A stretch of 64,000 nt of DNA, from positions 310,001 through 374,000 of the forward strand of contig JAWWNJ010000071.1 of assembly GCA_037176885.1 (NCBI GenBank), given 5' to 3'. A model generated the notes under the pieces. It made no database searches. It was not told the origin of the DNA and saw only the letters and a program-made list of their open reading frames with translations. Both the position numbers and the translations under genes were made by a program. Source of the DNA: Favolaschia claudopus (Eukaryota > Basidiomycota > Agaricomycetes > Agaricales > Mycenaceae). This document shows positions 14,012 through 41,924 of the stretch, piece after piece (within the stretch, counting starts at the first letter, position 1; each line of letters opens with the position of its first letter).

Positions 14012-14013
14012 TC

Positions 14014-14031: not shown

Positions 14032-14080
14032 GCCGGAAGTACCAAGAGAGCAATTTATTTTTGGAAATTTGGGCATCTCT

Positions 14081-17752: not shown

Positions 17753-17809
17753 AGATTGTGGTGGTATGCGCCTCTGTAATCTTAAAATTAGAACTTCTCC
17801 GCGGAAGGA

Positions 17810-18553
17810 TTAAAATGGGAGATCGTACTTGTCAGGCGATTCGACGCAGTGAATGGACGTGTCGGGAGGAAGGAGCTTGGACATACGAAGCTCGACGAAG
17901 CCGAGGGCGGAGTTGTCGTAGCCGTGAAGGATGAGTTCCTTGCGCATGTAGGCGAGTTCATGAAGATCATCGATCTTGTTGACCGCTTTGATGAACTGGG
18001 CCTTGCGAGCCTTGATGGAAAACTCATGGTGATAAGCGAAAGCTTCGTCAAGCTGGTTAAGCATGGTCTCCAGGTCGACGGTGCTGCGACCGAAGATGAT
18101 AGCTGAAGGGGAGGATTAGCGAGGAATAAGTCTGGACATCTATAAATGGACGCACCAGGACCTCCGCGCTTCTTCCAACTTTCGATCATCTTGTCCTTGC
18201 TGGTGAAGTCGCAAGGATGGAATTGAATAAGACAGTTGTGGCAAGGAGGACCCCAACTAGTAGGAGCGCAAGGCTCGACGTTGTGTTTCTTGGCGCAGCA
18301 AGAGCACTGTTCAGTCGGCTGGTGATGAAAATAGATCAGTCGAAGTTGAAAGTAACAAGTACTGAGGACGCACCTTATTATCTTCCATAAGATAGATGGC
18401 AGCTTGAAACTTGGGAAGGATCTCGCTGACAGGGACTATGATATCGCGTGCGAAGGCTGCGAGGACTGCGGCAGGATCCATTTCGTCGGGGCTGTCGTAG
18501 AGATAATCGTAGTAGTCGTCGTTCTCTTCGTCGTCTAAGCCGTGGATGCTCAT
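17810..18553 (-). CDS. Antisense accessory gene 3 of inner element: WG-type Zn2Cys6-like protein, 207 aa
   Basis: The exons are 18553-18374, 18306-18156 and 18102-17810, with introns of 67 and 53 bp; the spliced frame is clean to the stop. An acidic N-terminus (MSIHGLDDEENDDYYDY) precedes a cysteine array: CSCC, C eight residues later, then TSWGPPCHNC and C six residues later (CX2CX8CX8CX2CX6C). That is close to the GAL4-type binuclear zinc cluster. The C-terminal half is helical and charged. It shares the WGxxCxxC feature with the outer element's genes at 34140-36546. It lies 57 bp beyond the stop of pol, convergent to it. Three CCGCGG words lie within 0.7 kb upstream (about 18806, 19125, 19199). 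A DNA-binding role is inferred. Confidence 0.72.
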
Positions 18554-19206
18554 GCAAAGAGAAAAGAATATTATGGGAGAAGACGTTCCTGTGAGGCACT
18601 GTTTAAATAGTAAACACTGCTGAGGAGATGTCTTGCCTGTGATTATTTGAATCAGATTTTGTATTGATCATAAGCGGGACGGAGGAAAGTAAAGGAGTGA
18701 GACTTGAAGTCTAGGCTTGCCAAGACTTAGAGGCGCACAATATCCAGTGGAATAAGGGCTTCAAGGAGCATGTAGGCGGTCACGGCAATGGAGTCGTTCA
18801 CAAAAAGGCTTCCGCGGCGGCTTGAAGTACTTGAGAAGTTGAAGTAGAACTGGACGATTGGAGTTCTATTTTTGGAATTCTGAGCGCGGAAAAAGAGTCT
18901 TACCACTCCTGAGATGTCCAAGAGACTGCGGGAAATCGGACGAAGTTGGCTTGACAAAACAATTGTATTGCAAGCACTGCTAAGTATATACGAGACACCC
19001 GGGGATTTGGACAGTTGCTGGTTGAACAGCAAATATGTGCGGTTGAACGCACGACGATACGATAGGGAACACTGAGAGTTGACGGTTTATGTGTCTAAAG
19101 AGCGAAGGCACATAGGTATATAGGCCGCGGAAGGACGATCAAGTCTAGAAGGCGGAAAGGTTTAACTGGAGAGCTATAAAAATAAACGCAGAGACATACC
19201 GCGGAA
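18554..19206. other. Spacer between antisense genes 3 and 2 of inner element
   Basis: This is the upstream region of accessory gene 3 (minus). It has CCGCGG at about 18806, 19125 and 19199. I see no further gene, although a 101-codon minus frame (18727-19032) is open without coding features. Confidence 0.5.
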
Positions 19207-20835
19207 CTAGCAGGGGCGCATAATGGGATCCTCGTTGTCGGCATGATGGATCTTCATGAGCTGCTCGAGCTGGTCATCCATCTCCTCGTAGGCGCGAAGC
19301 CAGTAGCGATACTTGAAGGAAGCGGCGGCCATGTTGCGGCGGAGGTAGCGCTCGCGAGCCTTGAAACCTTGCGCGTCCAAGTGCTTGAGTTGGTTCTGAG
19401 AAACCTTCCAGGTCTTGTTGACATCGTCCGAACGCATGATGGCGATGAGGTCCTTGTCCATGGAATCTAAAATAAAAATTAGACGAAATTAGATCAAGGG
19501 GAAGATGAACTCGTACCAGGGACTTTGGGCTCGTAGTCGAGGTCGACGTCATCCGGTTCGGTACGGGCACGCTTGTTGCTGCGGTTGGACACAGGGTTCA
19601 ACGACAAAGCAGGCTATGAGCGAGAATTAAGCAGAGAAACAGAGTTGACGAATATTTCACGCACCATAAGTGGTTCCGCGGGCGCCATCTACAACAATTG
19701 ATGAACGTTAAGCGAGATTTCAACCGTGGGATATGGGTTACGTACCTTCTCGTCCTCGTCAGGACAAGTGGAAGATGTGTCGGAGTTCTTCGCCTTGGGG
19801 CCTTTGCCCTAATAAAACGATGTTATAAAAATAGAACAAAGTGAAAAGGCGAACGCACAGGAACTTTACGAACATTTTTGAACATGTCCTCTGGAACGGG
19901 ATCGTCAATGATGCGCACGGATTTGCCGTCGTCTTGAGGAGCCTTACCGGCAGGGATACCGTCCTTGGGCTTGACAGGGCAGTTGTCCTGGCCGTGCTGG
20001 TGAGAAGAGCAAGACGAACAAACGGAAATCTGGGTGAATGAAGAGGAAAGTGCAGAGGGATAAAAATAGACGCACAGTGTCGTTCTTGACCTTGGGCGCA
20101 CTATTCTTCTGGAAGGAGAGACCAGGGGGCAAAGAGGAGCCTCCTGCGCGATAGTTGGCTCCCATGGCAGCGATATAGAGAGGGTTGATTCTACCTTCGT
20201 CCTTGTCGAGATCCATCTGGAGTTGGTTAATACCATAGATAATCTTCGTAACGTCTGAGGAATACCTGATCAGCGACGGAAGCTTCCTCCGCGGAGTCGT
20301 CGTCCCCGGAATCGTCGATGACTTCAACAGACTTACCCTGCATTATAGAGGACAGTTCAGGACCAGGAGGCATGCGACGAACACGAGAAAGCACCTGTTG
20401 AACTTGAGCCTTAGCACGGTGGCCCTTGATGGCTGCCGCGGCCTTGTCGCGCTTGCTATTCTTGGCGTTGTGGTAGTTGTTGAGCATGCGGTCGATAGCG
20501 CCAAGCTGGGAAGTAGGGATCTTGAACTTGGAGATCTTGTACTCGTCCCTCATAGCGTTGGAGGCGGCAGTAAGAGCAGTGACGACCTTCTCGTTGGAGG
20601 GGTGCTGAAGGGACTGAGCGAACAGTTTGAAGTCCGACTAAAAATAGACAGAGTCAGCGCGAAAGCGTTTGGGCATGCAAAAATATGGACGAACCGCCGC
20701 GGCTGCGAACGTGCTGAGCGTAGAGTGAATGACAGCCGCAGGGAGAGAGTCTCTGAGGGCGACGACCCGTTGAAAGTCGCGTTCAGCTTCAAGGATAAGG
20801 TTGGACGCTTCGATGAGCGCAGAGCGTGGTGCCAT
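19207..20835 (-). CDS. Antisense accessory gene 2 of inner element, 422 aa, eight exons
   Basis: The exons are 20835-20695, 20637-20266, 20216-20076, 20029-19859, 19808-19746, 19688-19665, 19613-19517 and 19466-19207. The seven introns are 46-57 bp, almost all starting GTNCGT/GTGCGT, and the joined frame is 423 codons. The N-terminal third is helical. A half cysteine array CSSC...C lies in exon 4. Exon 5 holds GKGPKAK and exon 7 SNRSNKRARTEP, a basic NLS-like word. GPKAK followed by NKRAR recurs in the same order in the outer element's gene at 32464-33616, so the two are probably homologous. The C-terminus is a helical segment rich in Y, W and K. I do not recognise the family and give no biochemical function. 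Confidence 0.72.
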
Positions 20836-21855
20836 GGCATGCGATGAAGGCCTGTAGGCGACGAAGAAATGAGCAGAGAACAGAAGTCAATTTATAGTTT
20901 TGACTAGGAGAGCTTGGTTAAATTGTTAATGACCGGCTACGATCGTGAAAACGAGCCAAGGCTGTTGGTTGCACCTCTAACTGAATTGAATATGCGAGGA
21001 CGCATCTTTTTTCTTTAGTGAGGGGGAGAATATAGAGCAACAGACAACCGCGGGAGGGTATTGCGCCACCGCGGGCCTTGCAAATTTACCCATAAAGAGA
21101 CAGGGAAATTGCTAAAATTAGACGATTTAGAGCTGGAGCGTTGCCAAAGCCAAGTTGCGGAAGAGTTTTAAGGCTGAATAATGTCGATCGGTTCCTATAC
21201 GATCGATTTTAAGAGGCAGTTAGGGATGATAGTGGTTATTCTATTAAGCAAGAGGCTTGTGGAATATACATGCGGGAGTACAGAGCTCTACTTTAAGTAT
21301 ACGTTCAGAGGTACTTGAAAGAGAGAAAGATAAACTGTGCTAAAAATAGCCCGCGGGGAGCCAGAAAAAGAGATTTTGGCTAGAGTAACTTTTTGACGAC
21401 TTGTAAGAAAAAGTGTCAGGGAGTGTCAGAGATGACTTCTGATGGAAGTTAAGGAGAAATTTAAAAGACGGTATTTTTGGAGTAGGGAAGATGGACTTGA
21501 CGAATGTTCGTAAAAAGAATATTCGGCAATCTCCGGAAACTGATGATGAACAGTTGATGGCCTTCAAGCCAGTAATTGATCTGATCACTCAGTTGTTCTC
21601 ACAGTTCAAACAATATAGACAGATGAAGTGCTTTTGCGCACTGTGCAATTGAGATCCAAGCTACCCTAAGTTTTACAGGATAAACTAAGGGAGGATCTAG
21701 AGATACTATGGCTATTTAACAATTGTCTTTAGTAAAACAAAAAATATCTTCGAAAGTTTATAGACTAGAAGAGGATAGTCTGTACAAAGTGCGGTGTAGA
21801 TATAAGCAAAAGAAAAAGCGTCGTGCGAAGCCAAGAGACGAGTCCCACCAACCCC
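20836..21855. other. Spacer between antisense genes 2 and 1 of inner element
   Basis: About 1 kb upstream of accessory gene 2 (minus) has CCGCGG near 21046, 21069 and 21350. No conserved open frame was recognised. It is AT-richer than the genes and presumably holds the promoter of gene 2 and the 3' region of gene 1. Confidence 0.5.
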
Positions 21856-23632
21856 CTACCGCTTGCGCTTAGCTCCCGAGCTGCTCCCCTCCTCGCGATC
21901 AGGAGAAGGTGGACGGGCGGAAGCAGGCTTGGGGTTGGGCTTGTCGAAAACCTCGGCAGAGCTAAAAGCTGCGATGGGCTTCGGACGAGAGCCAGACGAA
22001 CCGCCCGCGGGCGCAGAGACAGACGAACCACCGGAAGGAGGTGGAGGAGCCGTCAGCAAACGCTGATCAGGAGGCGGCGCCGCCGGTGGGTGATGAGAAA
22101 AGTCCTTTGGAAGGGGCCCGACCGAGAAACGGTTGGAGATCTGCTGGTGGTAAACATGCCCCGTCACGTTGCCGTCGTCGTCTTTCTGCGGAATGGGACC
22201 CGTGGTTGGGTGGTCGTCCAGGACGCGGAGCTCGGCGTCCATGATGTTGGACTTCATGAAGACGCTGTGGTACATATCCCGGATGGTCTGGGCGTCGACA
22301 CGGTTTTCAAACAAGTCGTCGAAAGTATTGTTACCGAGGGCCTCGTCGATGCGTTGGAAGTGGAAAGCGGCGTCGCTGTGACCGTGATTGAAGCGTTTAA
22401 GGGCGCGCGCGTACAAAGCTGCCTGGATCTGCAGCTCGTGGGTGTCCACCAACAAGTTGGTGAACTGTTGGGCAAGCTGATGGGGCGACACGTTCCAATA
22501 CGGGAGCAACTGCTCGAAGAGCAGACGGAGCTGATTGGAGTCCGACGTGTACGAGCAGCGATAGTGCTTGTCGGCACAGAACGTGCACACTTCGCTGCCG
22601 CGGGCACGAACACAAGGTCGACCATGGGCGGCGCAGGTTGCACACGGAAAGTTCTCCGGCGAGAACCACGGCCCGGACGAGACGCTCTGCACGATGGCTG
22701 TTGGGATCTGAAGCAAGGCCGAAGGTGGCGGAGCGGTGCCTAAAAACAAGTTAGACACAGAAGAATGAAAGCGAAAAAGAAACGTACCATCAGGCGGAAG
22801 CGCACGGAAGTGCTCGAGAAGCTGCATTCTAGTTGAGATGGGCTCGGGGTCCGGCGTAGTTGCCGCGGGAGCCTCAGACTCAGGCTCGGGCGTAGGAGTA
22901 AACATGTCGCTCAAATCCTGGCGGAAAGTTAGAAAGAAAGATAAATGTAAAGAGATGACGAACCTTTCCGGAGGTTTTAGCCTTTTTGAGCGGAGGATTG
23001 TCGAGTTCGTCGTCAGAAAAGTCGAGTTCAGGCGCTGCCGCAACGAGGTGTGGAATTTGGAAAGAAGAAGACAGGCAAAGAGTTTCGGTGTTGGCTGAGA
23101 GACGAAGCTGGGTTTCGGCAGACGGGCGGATTGCCCGATACACTGGAATTAGGGCCCCTTGACCGGGCACGGATTTGGCGATGCCTTTGAGGACGTCGGA
23201 GACACAAACGAGGAAAGTCTCGACGACGTCGGGGATGTCGCTAAAGTCTTTGCGGTAGTCGAGCTGAGATAGCAAAAGAAGAGTTAGTTAAAGAAAAAGG
23301 AAGACGGCACAACGACGTACGAGTATGGGCTTCAAACGATGAATGGCCTTAAGCTGCTCCGCGTCGGGTGTGGCAGTCGAGGGATCGTCAAAGAAAGTTA
23401 CGAGGAGACGAGCGTCGTCGGTGTCAAAAGGCGCCCAGTACTGAGCCAAAGGGTCGTCGTCGAGCACCTCGGTAATGACTGGGACGCTGTCACGCCCAGG
23501 ACCACCGCGTGGAGCACCCCCGCGCCCTCGACCCTTGGCCTTGGGGCCACGACTGGCTGGCGAAGCGATGGACGAGTTGCGCGTGGAACGGCGCGTCGCT
23601 GCTGACGAAGTGGTGGACTTGTTGGATACCAT
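21856..23632 (-). CDS. Antisense accessory gene 1 of inner element: Zn2Cys6-like protein, 541 aa
   Basis: The exons are 23632-23321, 23263-22964, 22917-22788 and 22739-21856, with introns of 57, 46 and 48 bp bearing GTACGT or GTTCGT donors, CTAAC branch-like words and YAG acceptors. The frame is 542 codons; an upstream ATG at 23698 would add 22 residues. The N-terminus is Ser/Arg/Gly-rich (SRGPKAKGRGRGG), followed by a helical region. Six cysteines at residues 280-309 have exactly CX2CX6CX8CX2CX6C spacing (CATC, GRPC, CTFC, HYRC), the GAL4-type pattern, though less basic than usual and not N-terminal. A helical region and a Pro/Ser-rich tail ending GAKRKR follow. The outer element's gene at 37324-41233 occupies the same place and has the same array. 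Confidence 0.78.
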
Positions 23633-23698
23633 ACCGGCGACAAGCACCAGGGTTGATCGATGGGTAGTGGAAGTTGTAAGGAAACCAGAAGAGGACAC

Positions 23699-24455
23699 TA
23701 CTCAACGACGTAGGCGTCGAGGAGCGCAAGTTGGACGATGTAGAGAAACCAAGAAGAGGCCACAGGGTGTAACAGACACTGTGTGTGGTGGTGGTAAAAG
23801 GGAAGGAAGAATGTGGGCGCTAAGAAGGCGCACCCACAGCCTATAAGTCGAGACGGACTTAGAGAAATTTTCAAGAAGGACTTACACGCAGTCAGAGGAA
23901 TGAATTAGATCTCGATTTAATATCCCTGATAGAAGTCCTAGAGAGTTTGAAGAAGACGCCGCAGTAATTAGAAGAAAGATTAGGTTTGATGGAAAACCTA
24001 TTCTGGTTTCTATTGAGTTGCTGGCCACGGCGAGACTGATAAGCCGGCGAATGATAAGATAACAAGGAAAATGAGGCGTACCTAGGATTAGGGTTATCGC
24101 TTGGACCAGCAGAAGCGAGAAAAGTTGACCAAGTCAAGGAAATTGAGGACAAGAGCTGAAAAGCCCCTGTCTACGATTTTCAGACAGGAAATGTCAATGA
24201 CGTCATATGCCGTAATTGTGATTGGCGTCCGCGGAAGCAACTGTCTAAATTAACAGGCGGAACGTTTTAGCGAGTAGTGCAGGAGGACTTGACTAAAAAC
24301 AAGTTGCTCGAGGAAAAAGGGACAGTGAAGTAGTTTGCAGTTGGTCTAAAAATAGACGTCCGCGGGAGTTGTCATCCTTGCGGTCCACTTAATTTAAAGC
24401 CAAAAATAAGCACGAATTTTGGTGCAGGCTATAGACCGGGGACGGTCTAGATTTA
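23699..24455. other. Upstream region of antisense gene 1 and non-coding 3' end of inner element
   Basis: No gene is supported. CCGCGG occurs near 24229 and 24361. The region runs into the polypurine tract before the 3' LTR. Confidence 0.5.
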
Positions 24456-24467
24456 GTGAAGGGGAGA
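24456..24467 (+). promoter_or_regulatory. Inner element polypurine tract
   Basis: The purine run GTGAAGGGGAGA directly precedes the 3' LTR (TGTAACG at 24468), the usual place of the plus-strand primer in LTR retrotransposons. Confidence 0.75.
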
Positions 24468-26266
24468 TGTAACGACTGGCCATTTTTGCGCGTTATATCT
24501 GGCTATTTTAAGTCAAGTGCGGCCCTAAACAACCCAACTACCCGCCACGACTATAGTCTTACTCGACTATCAATAGGAAGTCAGTACCTCTGTTGGTGAC
24601 ACTAAGGAGGGTCAAAGTGAGCTCCGAGCTGTTGACCGTAAAACCCATCACAGGAGAAAGGCATTATATTAATAGCCTACTGCAGTACTATGGATCTGTT
24701 CCATAACAGAACCCTCAGAAGAGTGACGAAGAGTCAAGTACTTGTGTACTACGGACTTAGACGAAGGTCTACAAGGATGTAGGAGGCGCCGCGGGGCCTA
24801 TCAGAGTCAACATCAGTCAAAGGACAGATGCCGCGGGCTGCCGACTATAAATAGACAGCTGGAACAGCGGAAAGGGATCTCATACAGGAGATGCCGGTGC
24901 TAGGATCAGAAGGCAGAGTTATGGCAAGACATGAGGTCTTTGACAGGAGAGTTTGATGATGTGATGCTGAAGCCGAACAAGTGCGGCAACTTCATTAGAA
25001 ATCTATTTCTATACTGGAGTCAGCGCGGATGACTTGGTGGCTTGATAAATTGGACAACAGACGAGCCTGTGATATTGCGAGTGAATTGGAATGTCCCAAG
25101 AATAGTCTTAGGAGTTATTAGAGGCGTTGATGGCACCACCGGAAGGGTTGCCGCCAGTGACGGATTGACGGGATCACCAATGATGGCGTTCCGCGGGCTT
25201 CCGCAATTCAGTGATTCAACCGTGGGAGTCATAATTGCTGACTTTCTACCGTTGGATCGACAAGCCAAGAGGCTGCCGAAGGTCCGCCGGGACACCCAAA
25301 TACCAATATACCATCTCTCTACTCAATTGGATCGACATTGCTTACTCTGAACTATTTATGTGATGTATTTCTTGGCATTAGTATAAAAGGACCTGTATTT
25401 CTCGTTGAGCTGGAGGACACCGCGCTCAGTCTATTGGACAGCGTTGGTGAACTCAGGCAGCAACGTAGAGGCATATATAAAGATATTGTCTACTCGTTTG
25501 TCTTAATAGAAATTGTGTTGAAGTTCAGTTCAAGTGTGAATCTAAGCATCGTTTCGAGAGTGTTCACCCGCGGAGGCTTTGCTTTCGAGTAGCTTTGTCG
25601 TGGCCTTAGTGCGTAAGGAACTGCCTGCCTCTACTGCCCGCGGACTGCCTATCTCATTGTGAAGATACGTGTGCTCGAGAGTGAACTAGTATCTCCCTGA
25701 GTCTGAGGAAGAGTGGAACTGTCCATCTGCTGAAGCATTGCGTTGGGACTGCTGGCGCATAACCGGAAGAGATCTGATTAGTCCTCGTCTGAAAGGCTTG
25801 TGCTATATAAAGGAGTGTCAAAGGTTCCTGGAATTTGGAGGTTCAGGTCTATAGCGTAACTGGCGCTATAAGAATTGTGCATTCTGCCGCGGAAACTGTC
25901 TGTGGTCATTGTTTCAATCTCGCCCTGATATTCAACTTCGTTGGGTATCTTGTATCCTACTGTTTATAGTTCCTATTTTTAGGAAAGGTCCGCGGACGGA
26001 ATCACTTCCATCTACGGTGTGTGAGAGCGTGTTTTGTGCAAGGTTCTTACTTGCAAGTCGACTTATATCCTCGTCACTGTGACATCTGGATTTCGGATCG
26101 AACCCCACGAACTCTTCGAGAGACATTTGAGTGTATCTTGTGGAGATATTTGTGTTGTAGTGTTGTGTGTGTTGGTTGATTGTGTTATATATATATTTTG
26201 GGTGGTAGATTCTCTGCTGCGCTATATTTAGCACTTCAGTTGATATATTCAAGTGTCAGCGTTACA
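24468..26266 (+). repeat. Inner element 3' LTR
   Basis: This 1799-bp copy matches 12213-14011 with no difference that I found. It ends CGTTACA, followed by the TSD CCGG and the resumption of the outer gag. Confidence 0.95.
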
Positions 26267-26270
26267 CCGG

Positions 26271-26911
26271 GCAGAGTCCCAGGCGCCGCTGACTCCCAGT
26301 CTTTCCCGCGGATGCCAACCGTGCAATTCAAAGGGAACCTGGCGGATCAGGGGTGTCTTTATTGCGACAAGTTTGGGCATTTTAGAGATAAGTGTCTCAT
26401 CCGGCAAGCCCACATAGGGAGTGGAAAGATGAAGGTCGTAGGCTTCAGAGACTGTTTCCCCGATGGGATACCTATCCCGAAAGATGGGCACAAGTCCAAG
26501 AAGCAGCAGGTAGAGGAGTACCGCCCGGCCGCCCAACCCACGGCCGCTGCGCAAAACTACCAGTCTGTCTTCTCTCAGCTCTCCGTTCTTGACATGGATG
26601 AGCAGGAGCTGGAAGCCGCGCAAGCCGCTTTCAGCCAGAACGAGGAATTCTACTATGACCCGAGAGAAGAAGAATTGGTTTCCTTGCGAGCTGAGCAAGT
26701 AAACCTCCAGCGGCAAGTGACGCAACTCCAGTCGCATGGTTCAGGGGGTGTTCAACCACCCCTTGTGGCTCATCAAAGCCAATCTCCCCCGCCGCAATTC
26801 GATGCCAACGCTGTTGCGATTCTGCTGGCGGCTGTCTCAGCGAACTCTCGCTCTCCCAACGGGGCTGGTCCTTCCCGAATGGGGAACGGCGCCGAAGGAG
26901 AGAATTTTTAG
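26271..26911 (+). pseudogene. gag: Outer element gag, 3' part with CCHC zinc knuckle
   Basis: The gag frame continues here in phase with 11303-12212. At about 26358-26399 it encodes CLYCDKFGHFRDKC, a perfect CX2CX4HX4C retroviral-type zinc knuckle that binds RNA in the particle. A Gln/Ala-rich region and a short coiled-coil-like stretch (VSLRAEQVNLQRQVTQLQ) follow. The frame ends at TAG 26909-26911, directly after a slippery word. It is listed as a pseudogene only because the inner element separates it from its start. Confidence 0.85.
26902..26908 (+). promoter_or_regulatory. Candidate gag-pro -1 frameshift site (G AAT TTT, then TAG)
   Basis: In the gag frame the last codons are GAG AAT TTT TAG. 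The protease frame is the -1 frame and is open from 26659, across the gag stop. GAATTTT is a near-canonical X XXY YYZ heptamer with a stop codon immediately after, a common arrangement for -1 slippage. No pseudoknot was examined. Confidence 0.5.
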
Positions 26912-30796: not shown

Positions 30797-32242
30797 ACCT
30801 TCTTGCGATTCGCCACCGGCTTCTTCGAGGACGCAGATGGAAAACTCTATCATAAATCCTCAACGGGGAGTGCACATCAGTTGGTGGTAGACAAAGATCA
30901 CCGAATGTATATGATGCGGGCGGCTCATGATAGCCTGGCCCACCGCGGTGTCTTTGCTACCAAATCCTTGATAGAAATGCGTTTCTGGTGGCCTGAGATG
31001 GAGCGGGACGTCACCTGGTATATCAAAACTTGCGAATTGTGTCAGTTAAGGCAAAGGACTTTATTAAAGATCCCGCCCGTTGTCACCCATACCCCTTCGC
31101 TCTTCCAGATGGTGCATGTCGACGTGATGGTCGTTGGGACCCCTTCCAACGGCTTCAACAAAATTGTTGACGCCCGCTGCTCCCTCAGCAGCTATATAGA
31201 AGCGCGGCCGATAAAGAATGAGAATGCCAGAACATTGGCCTTGTTCTTACTCGAAGATGTGATTTGTAGGTGGGGCTGCCCGGAGGAATTGGTGACAGAT
31301 AATGCACCGGCCTTCCTAGCGGCTGTGGCCTACCTTGAGTCTAAGTATGGCATAAGGAATATTAGAGTTTCGCCGTACAATTCTCAAGCCAACGGGAAAG
31401 TCGAAAATGGGCACTTCTCGATGAGGCAATCCCTATGGAAAGCCACTGGCGGGAATCCCAGCAAGTGGTACTGGTTCTTCCCACAGATGTTGTGGGCTGA
31501 TCGGGTCACTATTCGGCGAGGAACAGGTTGTTCACCCTACTTTATGGTAACGGGCGCACATCCGATCCTCCCGCTGGATATAGAAGAAGCGACTTGGCTA
31601 GTGCATCTGCCCGGCAGGACTCTGACGACCGCTGAATTAATCGGATATCGAGCCCAGGCCTTGGCTAAGCACGCCACTCACGTCGAACAGATGAGGGAGC
31701 GGGTCACCGACGAGAAACGGGCGAATTTACGCCGGTATGAGATAGCTCATAAACATACTATCGAAGATTACCATTTCGAGCCGGGAGACTTGGTGCTCAT
31801 CAGGAATACGACCGTCGAGAAGTCGCTGAATACGAAGATGGCCGCCAGATACCTGGGACCAGTAATTATCATCCGGCGCACGAAAGGTGGAAGTTATATC
31901 GTAGCGGAGATGGACGGCTCTGTCTTTCAATCAAAAATTGCTCAGTTCAGGGTTGTCCCCTTCGAGCAGTGGCGCTCTATTAAATTGCCCGCTGACATTC
32001 ACGACTTAATCGACCTCTCGGCCGAGACGTTAGAAAAGATGGTCCAGGAGGAAGACGGTTATTCTGGAGATGACTTCCAATTCGGGAATGTGAGGTTAAC
32101 CCCCAGCGGGACGGCTGACGAAGAGCCGGCTCTGCAGGAGGCCTTGCCCGACGAAGAAGAAGAGGAGGAGCCTGACACGGATGAGCCGCTGCCTTTCAAA
32201 CGAAAGACTCGTTCTGCCACAAAGGCCGCTGCGCGGAAATGA
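30797..32242 (+). pseudogene. pol: Outer element pol, integrase part (after single-base frameshift)
   Basis: This part begins with TFLRFATGFF, aligned with SFMRFASHFF of the inner pol. It has an HHCC-like finger (HDSLAH, then CELC) and the catalytic blocks HVDVMVVG, VTDNAPAF and NSQANGKVENGH. A GPY/F-like module (YLGPVIIIRRTKGG) and a C-terminal acidic run ending in KRKTRSATKAAARK, probably nuclear-targeting, follow. The coding sequence looks functional, but it is joined to RT only through the frameshift near 30795. Confidence 0.87.
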
Positions 32243-32463
32243 ATTACTGCTACGATTCTACGTTACATTTTGAAACGGGATTCGAAGTCTTTGAGTAATT
32301 GTATTGTCTGCATCTCCCGCCAATGAGCAGCAAACAAGTTGCGCTCCCGGGGAGTGTGTGGCGGCCAGCAGAAGGATGAGCCGTGAGGTGTCCGAAACGA
32401 TTGAGCCAGTACCGAGTATGCTGAAGAAGGGGGGACCCGCTGGGGAAGCTCCTTGGGAACGAG

Positions 32464-33616
32464 TCAGGGAACATGAGCATCGACGCCGGCAGAGGAGGAC
32501 TCGGGGAACTCGCGAAGGCGAGCCGAGATCTTCTCTCCTTCGTCGAGGAGCTGCTCGCGCCGGGCCAGAGAGCTACGAAGGTTCTCGTGGATGACCGCCA
32601 GCTCGACCATGATGAAATACATCCGCTTGCGCAAGGCAAGGTGGTTGCTCATGAACTCGGTACCCATCTCAACGACGCTAGCGGCCTCGTCGACAACGGC
32701 ACCTGAAGCGGGCGCCGAAGCGTAAAACTCAGCCGTTGCTGCGATAACAGTCAGCGGGAAACCACTGACAATGGACGGGAAACTCACCGTTGGTGAGGAA
32801 GGAGTCCTCGTGGAACGGGACGCTGTCGATGCGGGCGCGCTTGTTGCCCTTACCCTTCTAACCGGGGGCCGGGCTATGCTGAAAGAACGAAATGAATGAG
32901 AGAAATTAAAAGCAGAAATAACGTGCGACTGACAGCGCGCACACCCTTCTTGCCCGCCATGGCTGATTTAGCCTTGGGACCGGTAGGGGGAGCCTTGGGA
33001 GCGGGGACATGCTCATCGTCAACAAGCATCTGGGTGAACAAACACCCAACGGCGATGATAGAAGTGTCAATCGTCAGCTCTACACAGGCCAGCTGTTAAA
33101 CGAAAGAACGAACCTCGTCAGCACCAACGGTGGTGAGAGCGGGCGATGGAGCACGAACGGTGCCTTCGTCCTCGTCCTCAGACTCGGGTTCACCCTGAGA
33201 CCGCCCGCGAGTACTCTTCTAGCGGGGGATGGTTGTGAGTCAATGGTGAGCACGGCAATAAAAGTTTGTGAAACCGACCCGGGTCCCCTTGGAAGAAGAA
33301 ACGGTGGAGACGGGCGGGATCGCCTTCTTGGAACGGTCTTCGTGAATGGCCTTGGTGATCCGCCGCAGGGCATCGTACCCAGCGGGGAAGGTCACGTCCC
33401 GTTTACCATCCGGGTCGTACAAGGAGTGGTAATATTCACGCGAGGTGAAGATTGCCTCACGAAGAACCGCGCTCTTGTCTTCCAAAATGAAAGGCATGCG
33501 ACGTCCTTGAGCTGGTTTTTACGAGACTCGGGCGGCGAATACTTGACGAGGTTGGCGGCAACGTCCATAGCCTTGAGGAAATCGGCTTTGACGGTGTTGT
33601 AATCGTTTTGAGACAT
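32464..33616 (-). pseudogene. Antisense accessory gene 5 of outer element (NKRAR-type), one frameshift
   Basis: Exons read from ATG 33616 (MSQNDYNTVKADFLKAM). Near 33497 the similarity of the reading passes to the next frame (MPFILEDKSAVLRE) without room for an intron, so a one-base indel is likely. Later exons give a Glu/Asp-rich segment, then APPTGPKAKSAM, then KGNKRARIDS, and a last helical exon 32787-32464 ending with a stop. GPKAK followed by NKRAR matches the inner element's gene at 19207-20835. It ends 221 bp after the stop of pol, convergent with it. Function unknown; exon limits in the middle are approximate. Confidence 0.55.
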
Positions 33617-34139
33617 CTTTGAAGGAAGCAGAGTAAAGACAGTAGACGAGGCTGGGGAGTATACCCGTTCGCCCGCTGCTTCTTATACTCGAGCGGCCGT
33701 AATATAACGCCGTAAGGATAATTTGGACGAAATTTGGACAACGGCCGAACTTGGATTACCATTTATGGTAGATGCACCCGCCGGGGGCTCAGAAAATTAT
33801 TTCAAACACACCCGATCCTTCCGTGGCACGTAAATTTGCTGCCGGGGGACCTGAATTTCCTCTGATCGATCAACTGAGGACAGTTGAGAGTTCTGAAAGG
33901 GGGAGAGGTGGGTCACCTAGCACGTCATTTGAGGGCAGCGGGCACATCTTTACCAAGAAATAAATGTTTCCAAGGCCTCACATGGGGGGCGGGGGAGCGT
34001 GTGTTATCGGAACGAACTATCCGAAAGTACATGTGCCTGTATCTACACTGCCTGCATCCTAGCCGGAAGATCCAGGAAAAGATTATTGGCGAGAACGTCT
34101 AACCGCTTGCGGATAACAGCAACATACGCTGCCGGGAGA

Positions 34140-34672
34140 TTAGCCGTTATGGCCTCTTGCAGAAGATGGAAAACCAAGCGGGCCTCGAAGTAAAAAAGAC
34201 AGCCGTTGGGCTGCCTCTGCGACGTTCCGCCCGACGATTACAGAATGGTATTGTTGCCAGAATGGGAACTGCGCCAGGGTCCCCTCGTGAAGGACATGCC
34301 AAGCAGCTAGCTGTCCCTTCGTAGCCGCTAGAAGCGAGTGGGGGATCAGTTGTGGCGCAACAGATAAGAAAGAAGTCGTCACTTACGATCGGGACCCTCT
34401 TTGAAACAGTGCCGGCGGGCAGCTATTTCATCGGCCAGCTCAGCGGTCTGAGTGTACGAGCAGTTGTGCTTCAGCAAGTAACAGCGGGTACACGGTGCTC
34501 CCCACTCAGTAAACTCGCAATGAGAACGGGCGTTGAGGCACGCAGAGCATACCCGGCTAGGCTGCCGAATGATGAGGAATTAACCGAGGCAAAATGTTCA
34601 GGAACGTACATAGTACTCCCTGAGCGGGCCGACGGGGTCATTCGGAAAGAGTGGATTTTCCAGCAAAGACAT
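34140..34672 (-). CDS. Antisense accessory gene 4 of outer element: small WG-type Zn2Cys6-like protein, 141 aa
   Basis: The exons are 34672-34610, 34561-34387 and 34327-34140 (introns 48 and 59 bp), and the joined frame is 142 codons with a stop. After a 25-residue leader come six cysteines at residues 26-55 with CX2CX6CX8CX2CX6C spacing, including TEWGAPCTRC. This is exactly the GAL4-type spacing with a WG three residues before cysteine 4. The rest is a short helical region. A TATTTAA-like word lies about 40 bp upstream of the ATG. Related, partly broken copies lie just upstream at 34956-35630 and 35766-36546, so this is the intact member of a tandem set. DNA or RNA binding is inferred from the cysteine spacing only. 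Confidence 0.7.
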
Positions 34673-34955
34673 GAGTAGACGACTGAAGCAAATGGGACCT
34701 TCCCGCCAGCTTAAATACCTCTCTGAGACCTGGCGGGAGACCCAAAAACAGAGAGATCGACAGCGGGACTCATTGCACCCGACGCTCCCGGAAGATCCGC
34801 AATACATGTGGAATATCCAACGTGGTGCTGAGCTCCCGCTGAGCGAAAACACGAGGAAGCTTTGGTTTCTAAGAAGCCTTCCTAATCGGGCAGCTTGAAA
34901 CGGAGTTTTAAAGATGCAAGTTCGTTTGACAGTGGGAATATATTTCCTACTACGC

Positions 34956-35630
34956 TTACGGCCCGATGAACATAGCGGGTGGGAGCCTTGCGCCGGACTG
35001 GAGAGCTACAGCGTCTAACCTATCCCGGAGGAGATCTACAATTTCCTTTCGCATGCCCGCCCCTTTCGCGTCGAACCACAGCCGATGTAAGAAGCGTAGC
35101 TGGCCAAACCCAAGGGTGCCGAGCATGGACCTGGCGGCGAGGATGGGGCAAGTACGCACATCAATGTACAACTTCTCGTCGAATCGGGCACCGGCGGCAC
35201 TGGCGTACCAGTCAAAACTGAGCGATCCGCCCGGCGGAGGGGAGCTAAAATCCACTAAGGTCCCGCCGAGAGGTAGAAAGATAGAAAACAGACTTACCTG
35301 GCCGAGAGGCTAGAAGAGTGTCGCGACGACGGCTGTTCTCGGCCTGCCAGACGGACTTCTTAGTGTAGCAGCATAAGGCGGCGCGACCTATGAACATGCA
35401 GCTGAGGCAGGCTTCACCCCACTGAATCCAAATGCAATGGCGGGGTAGTTCTGAGGCAGCACTGGCACTCGTACTCCGGCTAAGAGAAGGCACCCGTCAG
35501 CGGGGAGAGCACCGAGAAAGATTGAAAAACCACAAACTGAGCTTGAAGTACGAGCTGGGTACTCTGAGGGACCGGTGAAGCTCCTAAAGCGTTCTGAGTA
35601 AAAAGTCGCTGCCAAAGAAAAGGCGGGCAT
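34956..35630 (-). pseudogene. Antisense accessory gene 3 of outer element: decayed WG-type Zn2Cys6 paralogue
   Basis: It is laid out like the gene at 34140-34672: a first exon with GPSEYPA (compare GPLREYY), an acceptor TTAG, then a cysteine exon. In that exon the first CX2C (ECQCC) is in one frame while HCIWIQWGEACLSC and the last C are in the next, so the array is split by about one base near 35446. A later exon (35255-34956) reads FDWYASAAGARFDEKLYID and ends in a stop. It is probably non-functional, unless the shift is a sequencing error. Confidence 0.5.
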
Positions 35631-35765
35631 CGCTCGAAGGACTCACTGGGCACCGGCCGCTATAAGTAAAATCTATAGCCGACGGGTGAGTACCACCGGC
35701 TGCCGGACCAACGGCTCAGGTGGAATCAGACATCACGATAACGGCTTGCGACCGGGCAAAGAGAT

Positions 35766-36546
35766 TTATTTGACCCTAACGGGGGAAAAGCTACTAGCCT
35801 GGATTATCGCTCGAGAGGTCTGGCGGCGCGTGCCTTGGGTCAAGGGCACGACGGTCGGTGCATTATCGTCCCGTCGCCTGATATCATGGAGCGAGATAGC
35901 TGCGTCGACATCGCATTGGGCATGGACCGGGTAGTCCTGGGTACGCCACTCGCGCAAAACTCGAGATAGGATGTTGTAGAAATACAGCCGCCGACTGGAG
36001 TGAGCGGCGTGAGACAGGTCGTGAGAAACGTCCCAGTCACGAAGGTCGCCAGCAAATTCCTCCCGCCGACGTAAAAAGTCAGCGGGCTCACCGTCCACCG
36101 AGCCTATGAACATATCACGGCTTAAGCCACCGAGGCGTAGGTGGTACCAGAGTTCGAGGAATGCAAGGTCGTATAAAGTGCCGCCTGAATAGCATAAGAA
36201 AGACGAGAATTTAAAAAGCGGCTAGACTTACCGCTGCGATAGACGAAAAGTGTCGGAAAGGTCGAAGAAGGATAGGTAAACTTGAACCAATCCACCCCGG
36301 TGAACCAGACACTTGGGGACCTTTGCCTCCCGGCACCGAGTGCACTTCGAGCCCCAGTGAAGAAATTCACAGTCTTCGCCGGCGTCACTACAAGGCGTAC
36401 AAACGAGATTCGGCTAGCGGCTGGTTGGGCTTGGCACAGAAATGTGTTGAGGACGGCCTATGACAGTATAAATCTTGCGCACGAAGTCTTGACTGACCGC
36501 TGGGAAGGAATGATAGTCGACTAAGACTCACCTACGGGCTGAGGCA
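35766..36546 (-). pseudogene. Antisense accessory gene 2 of outer element: WG-type Zn2Cys6 paralogue with uncertain splicing
   Basis: After a CTAG acceptor near 36395 the reading gives CTPC, GEDC, HWGSKCTRC and then C seven residues later: CX2CX6CX8CX2CX7C, an intact array. The exon continues to a strong GTAAGT donor near 36233. The downstream segment (GLSRDMFIGSVDGEPADFLRRREEF and on to 35766) looks coding, but it is not in phase with the simple donor/acceptor pair. Either a weaker site is used or a base has been lost. The start may be the ATG at about 36546, 5' of a donor GTAGGT. The array itself is clear; the gene model is not. Confidence 0.5.
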
Positions 36547-37323
36547 TGGCAATGGAAAGAAAAAGATGGTTTGATTGGCTATCTACCCCCTATCGACTAC
36601 AAGTACGGTAGCGGGTAACTCGATCCGCCGGCCGATTCTACTCTACGTTATCCCTCTTACGAGGCTAGTGGGAGAAATGAGGGACTAGTCACCCGGTGGA
36701 GTCCGAGGACAGCCGCTGACAGCTGGATGAGATGCCGCGGGCAATCCCCGCTATCTGATGATCCCGGTGATAAGCACCGTTGCCGCTCGGCATGTTGAAA
36801 AACTCGAAAGTTCGAGTGTTCAGTTCGCTCTCCAAGCCGTGCTCAGCCGACAGGCGCAGCACTTATTTGGAATTCCCCACTTCAGACTCTTACAAGACAC
36901 TTAGAGGCTCTAGCCGGGAACTCGGGCTTTGGAACTTAGAAAGGACTTAAGATTTTCACACGAGAGAGGGCATCGTAAAAGCTTTTAATTTTCATTGGCT
37001 CTTTGGCCGGTACACGATGCTAAACTACTTGGGGCATTTAATTTTTATTTGGTGGGTCTTGGCGGGTGGAATTCCACCAGGCCAGACCCTTCGCAAGAAA
37101 CGGGATTATGGGACCCGCACCCGTAGCTTTTGTTGATATTTGGGGGCCGCTCGGCCCCCGCGATTATGAATACAGAATAATATTTCTGGAAAGAAGTTAG
37201 TGGGAGTCGGGGTCAGCGGGGAGATAGAGCAAAGTTGCTTACTTGCCGCCCGCCCGCCCACGAGGAAAAACTAGAAAGAAAGTCAGGAAGAGAAGTAGAA
37301 GGAGTAGGAATGAACTCACCGGC
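36547..37323. other. Spacer between antisense genes of outer element
   Basis: This is the upstream region of the gene at 35766-36546 and the 3' side of the gene at 37324-41233. It contains several AGCGGG/CCCGCT words and one CCGCGG near 36736. No gene is supported. Confidence 0.5.
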
Positions 37324-40300
37324 TCACGCCCAGTCCGAGTTGTCAAAGTCGAAGGGGGAGGCAAGGACAGTATTGTCCGGCTCTCCCACTGCGTCGACAT
37401 CTGCAACTTCCCCGGCCTCGACGGACATAGCGTCCGCGTCTTCGTCGTCGAGCTGCTCCTGGACGCTGCCGGCGACTTCGTCCTCGCTGTCCTCTTCACC
37501 CAACTCTTCTTCGCTAGACACCTCCTCGAAAGCGAAAGCTTCAGCCAGGAAGTCTCGCTCCAACACTGGTGCACCCACCTCGGCCGCTTCCGCTTCGCTC
37601 GCGTACTCCTCGACCAACGGCTCGACGGCATGACCCTTGCCTTTCGAGTGGGACCGCGGCTCAGGCGTCGGCGGGCGGGATCCGAGATCCATGTCTAGAA
37701 GCGGTCCAAATTGACTTAGCAAGAATTATGATAGAGAGAATTGGAAAAAGGACTGACCGTCGACTGGTCCCTCATCGGCTGACTCCTCCTCAGTAGGAGA
37801 AGGCGGCGGCTGGAACTCGTCGTTGGGCGCGTCAGTCTCGTCGTCGTGAACCACCGGGTCGGACTTGACTTTCGACTTCTTGGTGGAACTAGCCTTGCGG
37901 CGGCGGGGAGGTTTGACTTCCTTGTCGGGCACCTCGATGAACGTCCCTCGGGCGTACAACTCTCGGAAGAAGCCCGGCACGTTTTGGTGTTTCGTGCTGT
38001 AGGGCAGCGGGTGGCCGTCGAAATCCAGTGGGTCCAACTCGAGCGGGCCCTCTCCGTCTTTGTGAACGCGAGCTCGAACTAACGAGCCGTCGGGGCCAGA
38101 CGCTGAGCTGGGAACCCTCTCTTCCGAGAAGATGACGTTGAAGCAGTCATCCGGCTAGAAAGATTAAAAAGCGAGTTAGGCACGAGCGGGAAAGGGGGAG
38201 TCGACTTACCTCGACTTGAATCCACTGAGGTGCCCGGGTGTCTTTCTCGTCCGATGGAATCAGGAAGAAACCGAGCGGCGCAGACCGATCGTTGGCGTCG
38301 TAGGCCTTATAGAAATCATAGGCCGTGCCGAAAATTGGGATGTCCGCCTCCTCGAGGAGGGCCAGCGGGAAGAATTGCCAGGCGCGAGGCTCGTTGAGGT
38401 CGGTGCCGGCGTGCATTCCCTGGGTCATGGCGATACGGAGCATCAGCTCCATGTGAGCCTCCTTGTCTTCGACCGTTTCGCCATCGAAGCGGGCGACGAA
38501 GTCTTCGCGGTTGACCTGTCGGCGGGTAACGAGGATCGCGTGCAACATTTTGAACATTTTGCTGCGCAAGTAGGCGTAGGCGTTCTCGAGCGAGTTTTGG
38601 ATCGCAAAGACTGTTGCGCTAGCCTGATTAACGTCCTCGTTGAGGTCGTACCATTCTGTGGAACGGGTCAGCGGGAGAAAGATGGAAGATAGAATCCTTA
38701 CCCGGGCGGGTCATGAAGACCCATTCCTTGAGTTCCGTACCCATGAGGCTCAACTCCTCGCCGGTGGCCAAGAAAGTGCAGTCTTTCTTGGACTTAGAGC
38801 TGGCGCAGGCTGAGCACTCAGCGGGGAAGCCCGACACGTCGCATTCCGACCCATTGTGAATGCAACGGATGCACCGGGGACCGTACTAAGGGGAATAAAG
38901 AATTTGAAAGTGAAGCTTCAGCCGCTGGAGCACTTACCTGAGCAAGGAACAACTCTAAAGTGGACATAAAGGCGTCCGAGTTGAGCGCGAAAACACCTTT
39001 CTCCGGGTCGATCGGCAGCTCCTTGCGCATGGCAGCGTTCGGGTAGGCAGAGAGGAATTTCTTGAGGAGCTGTTTGTTTGGGATAACAAAGCCCTCCTTG
39101 GACTTCTTGCCGGTGGACGGCGGGTTCTGTAGTTGGTCTGGTTCACACCGGGCGAAACGAAGAGAACGAAATTCAAACCAAGACTTACCGGGTTGATGCC
39201 GAGGTTGCGGAGGATTATACGATGAGCAATGTCGGTTACGACGTTGGTCATCGACGGCACCTCGTCGATCGGGACATCCTCTTGAGGGTGGCGGGGAGCT
39301 GCTTTGGGAGTCGAAGCTTTCTTCGCCACCGGGGGCTTGGTGATCACTATGAATGAAAGACTCAGCGGCAGTTTGTACTTGAGAAGAAAAACTTCACTTA
39401 CAAACGAAGGGCTTTTTCGAAGCCTTCACCTCAGACTCGGAAATATATTCGATCGGGGGAGTCTAGGAGAAGTTTATAGTTAACTCAATGTCTGCCTTAC
39501 ATTTGGGGCAACAGCGGGTAACTACTACCTCCTGACGAACGGGCGCTTTGCCCTTCTCCTCCTTGACCTTCTTCGCCGGCGAAGTTTCGGCGGTGGCTGA
39601 CGCCTTGCGTTTTGACCCGCTTGCAGCGGCCAGGGGCGAGTCAGCGGGCACCGCGATCTTGCGTTTGATGACGGTGACCCGGCTGGGGTCTTCGGCGGTG
39701 GAGGAGTCTGTCTAAGATGAGGGATCAGCCGCTGAAATCGAGACAGGAAAGATTAATTTACCTTCTTCTTGAACTTAGGGAGGGCCTTCCTCTCCCGGGG
39801 GGTGTCCTCTTCCTGTAAAATTGGAAGGAAATCAGCCAAGAAAGGCTGAGAAAGAACGAAAACTTACTTGGGGCGCGGAGGCCGACTCGTCGGGCTGCTC
39901 GGAGTCGGCAGCAGGCTTGCCGCCGCTCTTGCCCGACTTCGACGAACCACCGGCGGCTTTGGGACGGGCCTTGGGCTTGTCGTCGTTGGTCTTCGACAAC
40001 TGCCTCGCTGCAGCCGAGGTGGACTAACGGTCGTGAGCTCGAGTCGAAGCCTGCTAGCGGGGAGGAATGGCTTACCGAAGTTGCCTTGGGGGGTCTAATG
40101 TCCTCAGGTTTTAGCGGGGGCAGGCGTTCCGGGATCTGGAAGCTTGCGACGCTAGCCGTGGGCTCCTTGGGGGCCTTAAGCTAGAAAAGGACAACATCAG
40201 TCAGTTCTGAAGATTGAAAGAAGAATCAGAGGACCTACCTTGAGATCCTCCATGGCCTTCTTGCCGATGGCCAATCCCCAAAGCTCGGGGTAGTGATGCT

Positions 40301-41233
40301 GCGGGTCGATTCTCTTGAGCTGCCGCCCGAGGTAGTAACTAAGTGGGAGCTCAGCCAAAGGCGAGCTTGCGAGCCTGGCTGAGTGTACGGCAAGCTAGAC
40401 AAGAGCACGGCGGATCGTGCCGGGCCTGCCGACATAGCCGCTGATCTCCTGATCACCTCCGCTCGCTCTTCTACGCGCCTTTCTCGCCTTTAGCTCAGCT
40501 TTTGCCCACCCACCCACTTCCTTTTCTGTCGCTTACGCTCTAGTGGCTGCGGGTCTCCTTCATCCAGACCCTCGGTCGCTTTTGCGTACGGGTTCGGCCG
40601 TTCCCGCGTCTCGGCTTCCTCCGACTCGCTTTCCCGCTGCATAGTCGCTCGCGGCAAAGCGCAGTCGGCCGGGACGGCCGAACCCCCCGCACACCCACAC
40701 AAGACCTTTCTCCTCATCTCCTTTCTTCTCCTTCCTCAGCACGAGCCCATAGAGCTCGAAGACCTAGCTTGCGGCGATGGCCATCGGGGGGACCTTGTCC
40801 TCGCTACCCTTGGCAAAGTTGAGATGGGCCCGGTGAATGCCCTAGCCGCTAATCAGTGAAAAGTCGAGCTAGCGGGCGAAGGAAGACCCACCAGCTCCTC
40901 GTGGAGGTCTTGAATGAGTTTCCTGACCTCGGCGGGCGGAGTCGAGTCCAAGGCGCCGGGAGTAATGAGCTTTTTGGCGTTTTCGAACTTGTCGGATTTG
41001 CCGCGCCAGCCCGACCAAAAATCGATACGGTCGCTAAGGTTGATTCGAGAGGGTTGGCCGGTGGAGGGCTCAGAAGGCGGAGCCGCCGACGATGCAGCAG
41101 CCGGAACCTTCTTGGGAACGGGCGTCGAGGCGGCAGGCGAAGCAGCCCGGGTAGAAACTTTGGAGGTACGAGAAGCTGAGCGGGCGACTGAGGCAGACTG
41201 GCGCTGCCGGGGAGTGTTTTTGTCAGAGGCCAT
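37324..41233 (-). CDS. Antisense accessory gene 1 of outer element: 14-exon Zn2Cys6-like protein, about 940 aa
   Basis: The exons are 41233-40892, 40841-40389 (interrupted by an insertion at 40765-40397), 40338-40239, 40180-40076, 40023-39868, 39812-39762, 39711-39529, 39462-39402, 39346-39189, 39126-38938, 38885-38702, 38655-38210, 38154-37758 and 37694-37324. With the insertion left out, all phases agree (941 codons). Introns are mostly 45-76 bp with GTAAGT-type donors. The N-terminal half is disordered and Ser/Pro/Lys-rich. Cysteines at about residues 480-511 are spaced CX2CX6CX8CX2CX8C (CIRC, GSEC, CSAC, KKDC). A conserved-looking helical domain (exon 12) and an acidic tail follow. The counterpart in the inner element is at 21856-23632. 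As assembled, the insertion brings an in-frame stop, so this copy may be dead unless the insertion is spliced out. Confidence 0.7.
40397..40765. mobile_element. 369-bp insertion in antisense gene 1, 4-bp TSD AGCT
   Basis: The gene frame is continuous if 40397-40765 and one AGCT (40393-40396 or 40766-40769) are removed. The insert is GC-rich and has a pyrimidine tract ending in CTTCCTCAG on the plus strand near 40739, like an intron acceptor. No terminal repeats, coding domain or poly-A were found. A captured host-gene fragment or a small non-autonomous element is possible. Duplicate CTAG words at the same edges make the exact boundary uncertain by a few bases. Confidence 0.45.
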
Positions 41234-41911: not shown

Positions 41912-41924
41912 AGAAAGGGGGAGA
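41912..41924 (+). promoter_or_regulatory. Outer element polypurine tract
   Basis: The purine run AGAAAGGGGGAGA directly precedes the 3' LTR, as required for plus-strand priming. Confidence 0.8.

Follow-up and report, generated by a model that had tools for sequence, protein, structure and literature searches.

The 64,000-nucleotide stretch of the Favolaschia claudopus genome analysed here (contig JAWWNJ010000071.1, positions 310,001 to 374,000; below, the window, with positions counted from its first letter) contains two nested Ty3/gypsy elements, the inner one sitting within the gag gene of the outer one. Both carry a block of spliced genes antisense to pol, located between pol and the 3´ long terminal repeat (LTR), and comparison with other copies shows that these genes are real and that purifying selection maintains them. 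In each block, the one closest to the 3´ LTR is a swappable cassette that occurs in deeply diverged versions on nearly identical backbones. In addition, each family contains its own short word, spread over the whole element. We tentatively propose that such LTR elements might run a self-recognition system, in which an antisense, spliced zinc-cluster module reads the element-wide word and a multi-allele locus, maintained by conflict, is swapped by recombination.

The gene models were obtained with a gene finder that uses codon and splice scores, was trained on one exon of inner gene A and then iterated. On the minus strand it returned 23632-21856 (gene A), 20835-19207 (gene B), 18553-17810 (gene D) and 33616-32464 (outer gene B) as single genes and split the large outer gene, BIG (41233-37324), into two pieces. 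It found no gene in any of seven control stretches, namely the plus strand of both blocks and the minus strand of both LTRs, of the inner pol and of two segments of the outer gag-pol. At default cost, none of the three small genes of the outer block (s1 to s3) was called in the window or in 20 other copies, and a lower cost yielded fragments. The continuous last exon of inner gene A is supported by the F. claudopus proteins P0002 and P0003, and in 9 of the 20 other copies BIG was modelled with 13 exons and 857-942 amino acids. A six-frame scan of the window detected five intact six-cysteine arrays, all on the minus strand and all within block genes (60 shuffles gave a mean of 0.02 and a maximum of 1); the sixth array, in s2, is split in the window and intact in copy L009. 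An array is present in each BIG and gene A class examined, and the finder's model of copy L026 splices it out.

The outer copy in the window is damaged. An insert of about 430 bp interrupts BIG at 40344-40773 and is missing from all eight comparable copies of BIG class I (see below), and outer gene B lacks 89 bp at 33498 that are present in all 20 other copies. Out-of-frame length differences set two stretches of s1 and one of s2 apart from all 20 other copies and the second s3 stretch apart from 19 of them.

Selection was studied in copies from the whole assembly (264.6 Mb in 460 contigs); copy numbers are lower bounds, with 21 of 434, 59 of 1183, 85 of 361 and 40 of 707 candidates scored. 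For the outer element, 20 other copies were compared, the best listed of the 434 candidates, and for inner gene A seven other near-full copies from the first search. Gene A is open from start to stop in all seven copies mapped, with GT-AG introns of variable length, and has a median ratio of nonsynonymous to synonymous substitutions (dN/dS) of 0.075 in 27 of 28 pairs, those with more than 10 synonymous differences; in its cysteine-plus-helical part the ratio of the corresponding proportions (pN/pS) is 0.02. For gene D, the window differs from L029, L030 and L033 with a dS of 0.05-0.06 and a dN of 0.007-0.009. Models of outer gene B and of BIG were obtained in all 20 other copies, BIG with at least 797 amino acids in 18 of them. 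Between and within BIG classes (L016 and L028 excluded), dN/dS of outer gene B was 0.04-0.19 in 15 of 15 comparisons. For BIG, five of the 15 comparisons (Ia-Ib, II, IIIa, IIIb and IIIa-IIIb) gave 0.11-0.19. The most recent copies of Ia and of Ib, each compared within the subclass, gave a BIG value of 0.48-0.52, and between classes I, II and III it was 0.39-0.66 at a dS of 1.3-1.6, which is near saturation.

The gene structures themselves are reflected in the way the copies differ. In seven partly overlapping copy pairs, 23 of 26 exon indels but only 6 of 87 intron indels were multiples of three, and substitution was 0.11-0.16 in exons versus 0.22-0.38 in introns. For s1 to s3, with L009 as reference, four of five exon stretches are free of stops and frameshifts in all 20 copies, and the fifth contains a stop or frameshift in a single copy; pN/pS was 0.02-0.18 in frame (0.03 in the s1 array exon) and 0.81-4.06 out of frame, where two tests were undefined. 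The block genes are present in all 20 outer copies fetched. For the inner family, 14 of the 40 pol copies listed (the best 40 of 707) have a gene A match in a partial list of P0002 matches, always antisense, at a distance of 5.5-5.7 kb in 13 copies and 8.3 kb in one. Both copies fetched from the 26 without such a match still hold a gene A relative, and the two are 75% identical to each other over the part read. A search of 5.8 billion protein sequences for relatives of the large accessory proteins found three, all of them hypothetical proteins of F. claudopus itself, and no others. They match the genome with up to 97-98% identity; none of the matches listed reached 100%. For pol, 1891 relatives were found at E<=0.001.

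The cassette became apparent when the outer copies were sorted by BIG into classes Ia, Ib, II, IIIa and IIIb. BIG proteins of classes I and II are 42-46% identical and those of class I or II share 27-31% identity with class III; the dS of gene B in the same copies is only 0.06-0.11 between the BIG classes. Class II and class III copies match the window at 92-97% identity over the DNA that stretches from gene B to 36850-37268. When class I is compared with class II, identity is back at 88-91% from 41226-41269, beyond the BIG start codon, and thus the swapped part barely exceeds the BIG coding region. Sliding windows over L014 and L019 gave the same picture, with 97-100% identity followed by 48-73% and then 82-99%. 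In class III, the first part of the LTR also differs, with 78-80% identity at about 41750-42258, no match up to 42653 and 91-96% thereafter. The genome contains more distant relatives as well, with 43-52% identity to the BIG relative P0001.

The inner family repeats this arrangement. The window and L033 are 96-100% identical below 21250, 50-62% identical at 21500-23750 and 95-99% identical from 24250 into the LTR, and their LTRs are 97.5% identical. Their gene A proteins share 34% of the amino acids and have a saturated dS, compared with a dS of 0.022 for gene B and 0.053 for gene D. Copy L030, with a gene A of class 2, follows the window at 97-100% identity as far as about 21200, where identity falls. 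Taken over both families, flanks of 88-100% identity enclose cassettes whose proteins are 34-46% identical, a pattern to be expected if genomes carrying old alleles recombined.

A third backbone, found in L031 and L032 (contig C24), has pol on one strand and genes D, B and A in the same order on the other. Its pol protein is 83% identical to that of the inner element, yet dS is 2.36, and the accessory proteins are only 30% (A), 33% (B) and 32% (D) identical. The presence of the antisense module on so divergent a backbone shows that the module is old. Together with the block in the other copies of both families, this makes chance capture very unlikely. In L031, an extra acidic gene of 249 amino acids is predicted beyond gene A (384-1345 of that locus), where the sequence could be either LTR or flanking DNA.

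An earlier note on this DNA, made from the letters alone, had described antisense, intron-rich genes between pol and the 3´ LTR of both elements and had taken their shared place and orientation as a sign of selection for element function rather than of chance capture. The frame-keeping indels and the purifying selection in other copies bear this out, and the block keeps its place and orientation in the copies of both families examined and on the third backbone. Of the eight gene spans it gave, five were recovered by the gene finder, BIG as halves; s1 to s3 were not called, and their frames are supported by the comparison of copies. Its count of five intact arrays and one split array held, and so did its description of the LTRs as unrelated and the pol proteins as diverged: inner and outer LTRs have no significant match to each other, and the pol proteins are 54-58% identical. 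The checks it suggested, on other family copies and on dN/dS, both came out in favour of function. They also revealed something the letters of one copy of each element could not show, namely the deeply diverged versions of the large gene on one backbone.

Each family has its own enriched word, and both words contain CGG. Zinc-cluster proteins typically read CGG triplets, and CCGCGG, the most enriched hexamer of the inner element, is two of them back to back. The inner element contains 33 such sites, where a second-order Markov model predicts 2.6 and a third-order model 7.9; 7 of them are in one LTR, 10 in pol and 16 in the block. Shuffling synonymous codons of pol gave a mean of 0.63 sites, and none of 5000 shuffles reached 10. 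On the third backbone CCGCGG is again the top hexamer despite the pol dS of 2.36; pol there contains 9 sites against 0.66 in shuffles (0 of 5000), and 7 of the 10 inner pol sites have a counterpart at the matching place. Seven non-coding CCGCGG sites are intact in a mean of 6.86 of seven copies, compared with 5.07 for all non-coding hexamers and 6.22 for GC-only hexamers. Four of five coding sites are kept in all seven copies and one (22598) in a single copy.

The outer element contains AGCGGG 76 times (15.9 expected at second order, 38 at third order) and CAGCGGG 40 times (3.8 and 12.4). The two words are reciprocal: the inner element has one AGCGGG and no CAGCGGG, and the outer element has nine CCGCGG, which is near expectation save in the LTR (3 versus 1.35). 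About 28.5 kb of host sequence contain 12 AGCGGG, one CAGCGGG and four CCGCGG. In coding sequence, AGCGGG is more frequent than in synonymous shuffles for two pieces of pol and for gag (2, 1 and 7 of 3000 shuffles reached the count) and for five of six BIG genes (p below 0.05); CAGCGG does so in four of six. In seven copies that represent all five subclasses, BIG plus its upstream region contains 20-27 AGCGGG where 4-5 would be expected, and none of 500 shuffles each reached the count, despite the fact that class III is barely alignable to class I there. AGCGGG is found on both strands, with 5 and 9 sites in the LTR and 10 and 10 in pol; in the antisense block it is biased 32 to 6, which may be explained by codon use. 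Thus, a short family-specific word is spread over the whole element, as is known for the targets of VANC proteins.

The accessory proteins are zinc-cluster-like; we do not class them as members of the GAL4 family. The Zn(II)2Cys6 cluster of GAL4-type proteins has the spacing CX2CX6CX5-12CX2CX6-8C, and the six-cysteine arrays of the window agree with it, so that the GAL4-type assignment of the earlier note stands as far as spacing goes. It does not extend to the Pfam profile: no domain above cut-off was found in the accessory proteins scanned, and whole BIG and D had no match to Zn_clus. That profile was listed for six of ten isolated cysteine pieces. In five of these six the half-clusters were in swapped order, the first half of the protein's cluster aligning with the second profile half or vice versa. 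The basic residues of BIG and A likewise lie mostly in the second half of the cluster (for example CIRCATRKEKC on the third backbone); in GAL4 they lie in the first half. A template-free model of the BIG relative P0001 has a mean pLDDT (predicted local distance difference test) of 50 and is well predicted at about 541-680. Alignment to 34 chains listed three PDB entries, two of HAP1 and one of PPR1, all Zn2Cys6 protein-DNA complexes, with low Z scores of 3.6, 3.4 and 2.5; they were not in Foldseek's own list for this model at E<=10.

The large proteins A and BIG appear to share remote homology over a region that comprises the cysteine cluster and about 90 further residues (hhalign E 1.1e-4, probability 56%). 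With blastp, one of three pairs reached E 0.001, and the other two were not significant. A second shared gene type, which the earlier note had read from the motifs GPKAK and NKRAR, is not supported: neither hhalign (E 0.27, probability 0.2%) nor blastp (E 0.38 at best) detected homology between inner and outer B, and what the two have in common is at most a pair of short basic motifs. Inner gene B can be read in an alternative way that contains a CCHC-like motif, C-X2-C-X4-H-X4-C, at about 19979-20020, and so does the gene B model of the third backbone (L031, 6829-8528). In the inner element this motif is followed by a stretch resembling the outer gag past its own CCHC. An antisense gag-like origin is possible.

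How might such a module act? The orientation of the block has one simple consequence, since introns of antisense genes would be expected to survive reverse transcription of the sense RNA. We consider it quite possible, though somewhat short of an even chance, that the block encodes self-directed nuclear DNA-binding factors which, similar to the VANC anti-silencing proteins, keep the element active. The module would be transcribed from an antisense promoter that lies within the 3´ LTR or close to it, and its proteins would enter the nucleus, where at least one of them, most likely through its cysteine cluster, would bind the word of its family. Binding along the whole element would keep it transcribed or unsilenced, as VANC does for VANDAL transposons. 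The cassette protein might diversify since some partner changes, either sibling elements or the silencing factors of the host. When co-packaged genomes recombine, cassettes would be transferred across backbones and the rest homogenised.

Several observations weigh against this proposal. The cassette classes tested in one family share one word, which speaks against its simplest form; the word reader is thus probably the conserved protein core or another gene of the block, and the variation of the cassette probably concerns a partner other than the word, for example a host factor. The CCGCGG excess is weak within the inner cassettes, and gene A codons contain three sites against 1.1 and 0.8 in shuffles, a count reached in 283 and 115 of 3000 trials. 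Where the codons encode identical amino acids, 31% of all hexamers and 51% of GC-only hexamers (n=35) are also shared between the inner and the third backbone, so that the sharing of CCGCGG sites, taken alone, is only suggestive. Zn_clus stays below its cut-off of 21, with 10.1 bits for whole gene A and 17.6 for the best isolated piece. Finally, host sequence also contains strongly enriched words, which stem from tandem repeats; enrichment alone is therefore not decisive, and the argument for the words is their dispersal, their excess at synonymous sites and their reciprocity.

The cassette can also be read in terms of immunity or copy-number control, which we consider unlikely but worth weighing. 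The cassette protein would limit new copies with the same allele, as heteroimmune phage repressors do, and rare alleles would escape and spread, so that many old alleles persist. This agrees with old alleles on nearly identical backbones, with classes I and II being alike at both cassette flanks, and with at least four inner and at least five outer classes or subclasses in one genome; however, the LTR side of classes I and II is 88-91% identical and the word is common to the classes, and no allele-specific operator was seen. We are more doubtful about a role in the particle or in integration, in which the proteins would tether to chromatin for target choice, or the CCHC-like and basic ones among them would package RNA, and the word would act at the level of RNA or cDNA. 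The CCHC-like motifs in the alternative reading of inner B and in the third-backbone B model would suit such a role, as would an inner copy apparently without gag, but the outer word is found on both strands of LTR and pol and CCGCGG is palindromic, which fits duplex DNA better than RNA.

Local hypermutation in place of swapped old alleles appears improbable as the source of cassette divergence. It would account for a BIG dS about five times that of gene B even within II, IIIa and IIIb (0.41-0.43 versus 0.06-0.09). Yet exons and introns diverge together under protein constraint and within limited borders, sharp or graded, the classes are discrete, and cassettes on the same backbone differ about as much as those on backbones with saturated pol divergence; hypermutation fits this less well. 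Least of all do we expect that the antisense transcripts act as RNA only, in double-stranded RNA or silencing control, with incidental frames, or that host genes were captured by chance. Roles of antisense RNA have been discussed for plant elements in passages of PMC7264820, but selection on the proteins, frame-keeping indels and the same gene order on the old third backbone speak for proteins, and the sole relatives found for the large genes, the three hypothetical F. claudopus proteins, speak against capture.

The elements themselves conform to Ty3/gypsy organisation (Table 1), with LTR pairs, target-site duplications (ACGT for the outer and CCGG for the inner element) and the order reverse transcriptase, RNase H, integrase; the corresponding Pfam domains are RVT_1, below cut-off, and RT_RNaseH and Integrase_H2C2, above cut-off. 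Both duplications are palindromic 4-mers (ACGT at 8946-8949, CCGG at 12209-12212). The outer LTR pair, 1.8 kb in length, has three differences and three gap columns. The CCHC motif of the outer gag lies at about 26350, past the insertion point of the inner element. The empty site of the outer element is preserved in a paralogous host stretch (3250-3944), which is 90-94% identical to 8704-8949 plus 43740-44206. The inner element has apparently no gag: its 5´ LTR and a primer-binding-like stretch (14005-14035) lead directly into pol at about 14028, and 39 other pol copies among the best 40 of 707 match the inner pol only from about 14028 (query position 629). The inner copy thus has the look of a derivative without gag whose LTRs are identical and which may have been mobilised in trans. 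Outside the elements, the window contains a perfect tandem duplication of 389 bp (675-1452) and two related minus-strand genes (4628-6862 and 56372-59611) with about 10 and 19 copies of a 126-bp tandem repeat, which we take to resemble the TPR repeats of NLR-type proteins.

Table 1. Positions of the two nested elements, their genes and their cassettes in the window
Feature	Position	Strand	Remarks
Outer element	8950-43739	+	about 20.7 kb without the inner element
Outer 5´ LTR	8950-10761	+	TG...CA ends; 99.67% identical to 41925-43739; ACGT duplication
Outer gag, first part	10919-12217	+	open frame, broken by the inner element
Inner element	12213-26266	+	14,054 bp including LTRs; CCGG at both flanks
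Inner LTRs	12213-14011 and 24468-26266	+	1.8 kb each, 100% identical
Inner pol frame	13925-17752	+	reverse transcriptase, RNase H, integrase (Pfam); 10 CCGCGG
Inner gene D	17810-18553	-	3 exons, 211 amino acids; six-cysteine array 18211-18306
Inner gene B	19207-20835	-	8 exons in the model, 411 amino acids
Inner cassette (gene A and flanks)	21250-24250		identity profile of the window versus L033
Inner gene A (cassette gene)	21856-23632	-	4 exons, 541 amino acids; six-cysteine array 22555-22644
Outer gag, rest (CCHC), and pol	26267-32242	+	frames; Pfam
Outer gene B-like (basic protein)	32464-33616	-	6 exons, 310 amino acids in L009
Outer small gene s3	34140-34672	-	six-cysteine array 34460-34549; frame disturbed in the window copy
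Outer small gene s2	34956-35630	-	array split in the window copy, whole in L009
Outer small gene s1	35766-36546	-	six-cysteine array 36309-36401
Outer cassette, classes I versus II	37268-41269		blastn segments of L018-L020 stop at 37268 and restart at 41226-41269
Outer BIG (cassette gene)	37324-41233	-	six-cysteine array 38778-38873; acidic C-terminal tail
Outer 3´ LTR	41925-43739	+	pair to 8950-10761

Antisense genes of LTR elements have no agreed function according to the passages seen of PMC7264820. The elements described here offer two independent handles on this question, a protein that behaves like an old locus with many alleles and a word that is overrepresented even at synonymous pol sites, and together they make it testable which protein, if any, reads which word and whether the element thereby escapes silencing. 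They also show that a single retroelement gene can have a past that differs completely from that of the pol used for classification. In the PubMed Central (PMC) listings searched we found no spliced multigene antisense block, no allele swapping of a gene of this kind and no element-wide word for LTR elements, a search that did not extend to subscription papers and preprints. If the proposal is true, this would be the first self-recognition system of such a kind in LTR elements and in fungi within the literature found.

Single aspects of the system are known from other elements. The closest fungal likeness, and the one exception to the earlier note's statement that no such genes were described in fungal gypsy elements, is Boty/BcGypsy1 of Botrytis, a gypsy element with the additional gene brtn antisense to gag-pol (Zhao et al. 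2011, as mentioned in PMC8365987 and PMC7264820). As far as these mentions go, it has one such gene, in contrast to three (inner) and five (outer) spliced genes here; brtn is known to us by mention, not by sequence, and the passages on Boty speak neither of allele swapping nor of an element-wide word. The plant elements Retand, Grande and RIRE2 have antisense open reading frames, a long region between pol and 3´ LTR and a suspected nuclear or DNA-binding role (passages in PMC7264820 and PMC11963269). However, the Retand frames carry TRP28 (PF04195), which had no match up to E=1 among the accessory proteins scanned here, and the word intron is absent from PMC11963269. Among viruses, HTLV-1 HBZ is an antisense retroelement gene for a nuclear protein (passages in PMC11963269), but it is a single gene, and the likeness is one of description, not of protein comparison. 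Retroviral env resembles the cassette in being a gene near the 3´ LTR that is replaced by recombination on a similar backbone (passages in PMC10536682); env, however, is a sense gene for cell entry, whereas the gene here is antisense, spliced and codes for a zinc-cluster-like protein.

A likeness in principle is offered by the VANDAL transposons of Arabidopsis, whose VANC proteins bind a short word repeated along their own transposon and cause loss of methylation. There, too, an element-encoded protein is combined with a short repeated word that differs between related families (as given in the parts of PMC5735166 seen). The likeness does not come from protein comparison, and VANDALs are plant DNA transposons whose word is mainly non-coding and often in tandem; the elements described here are fungal LTR elements, and their word is dispersed and found in pol as well.

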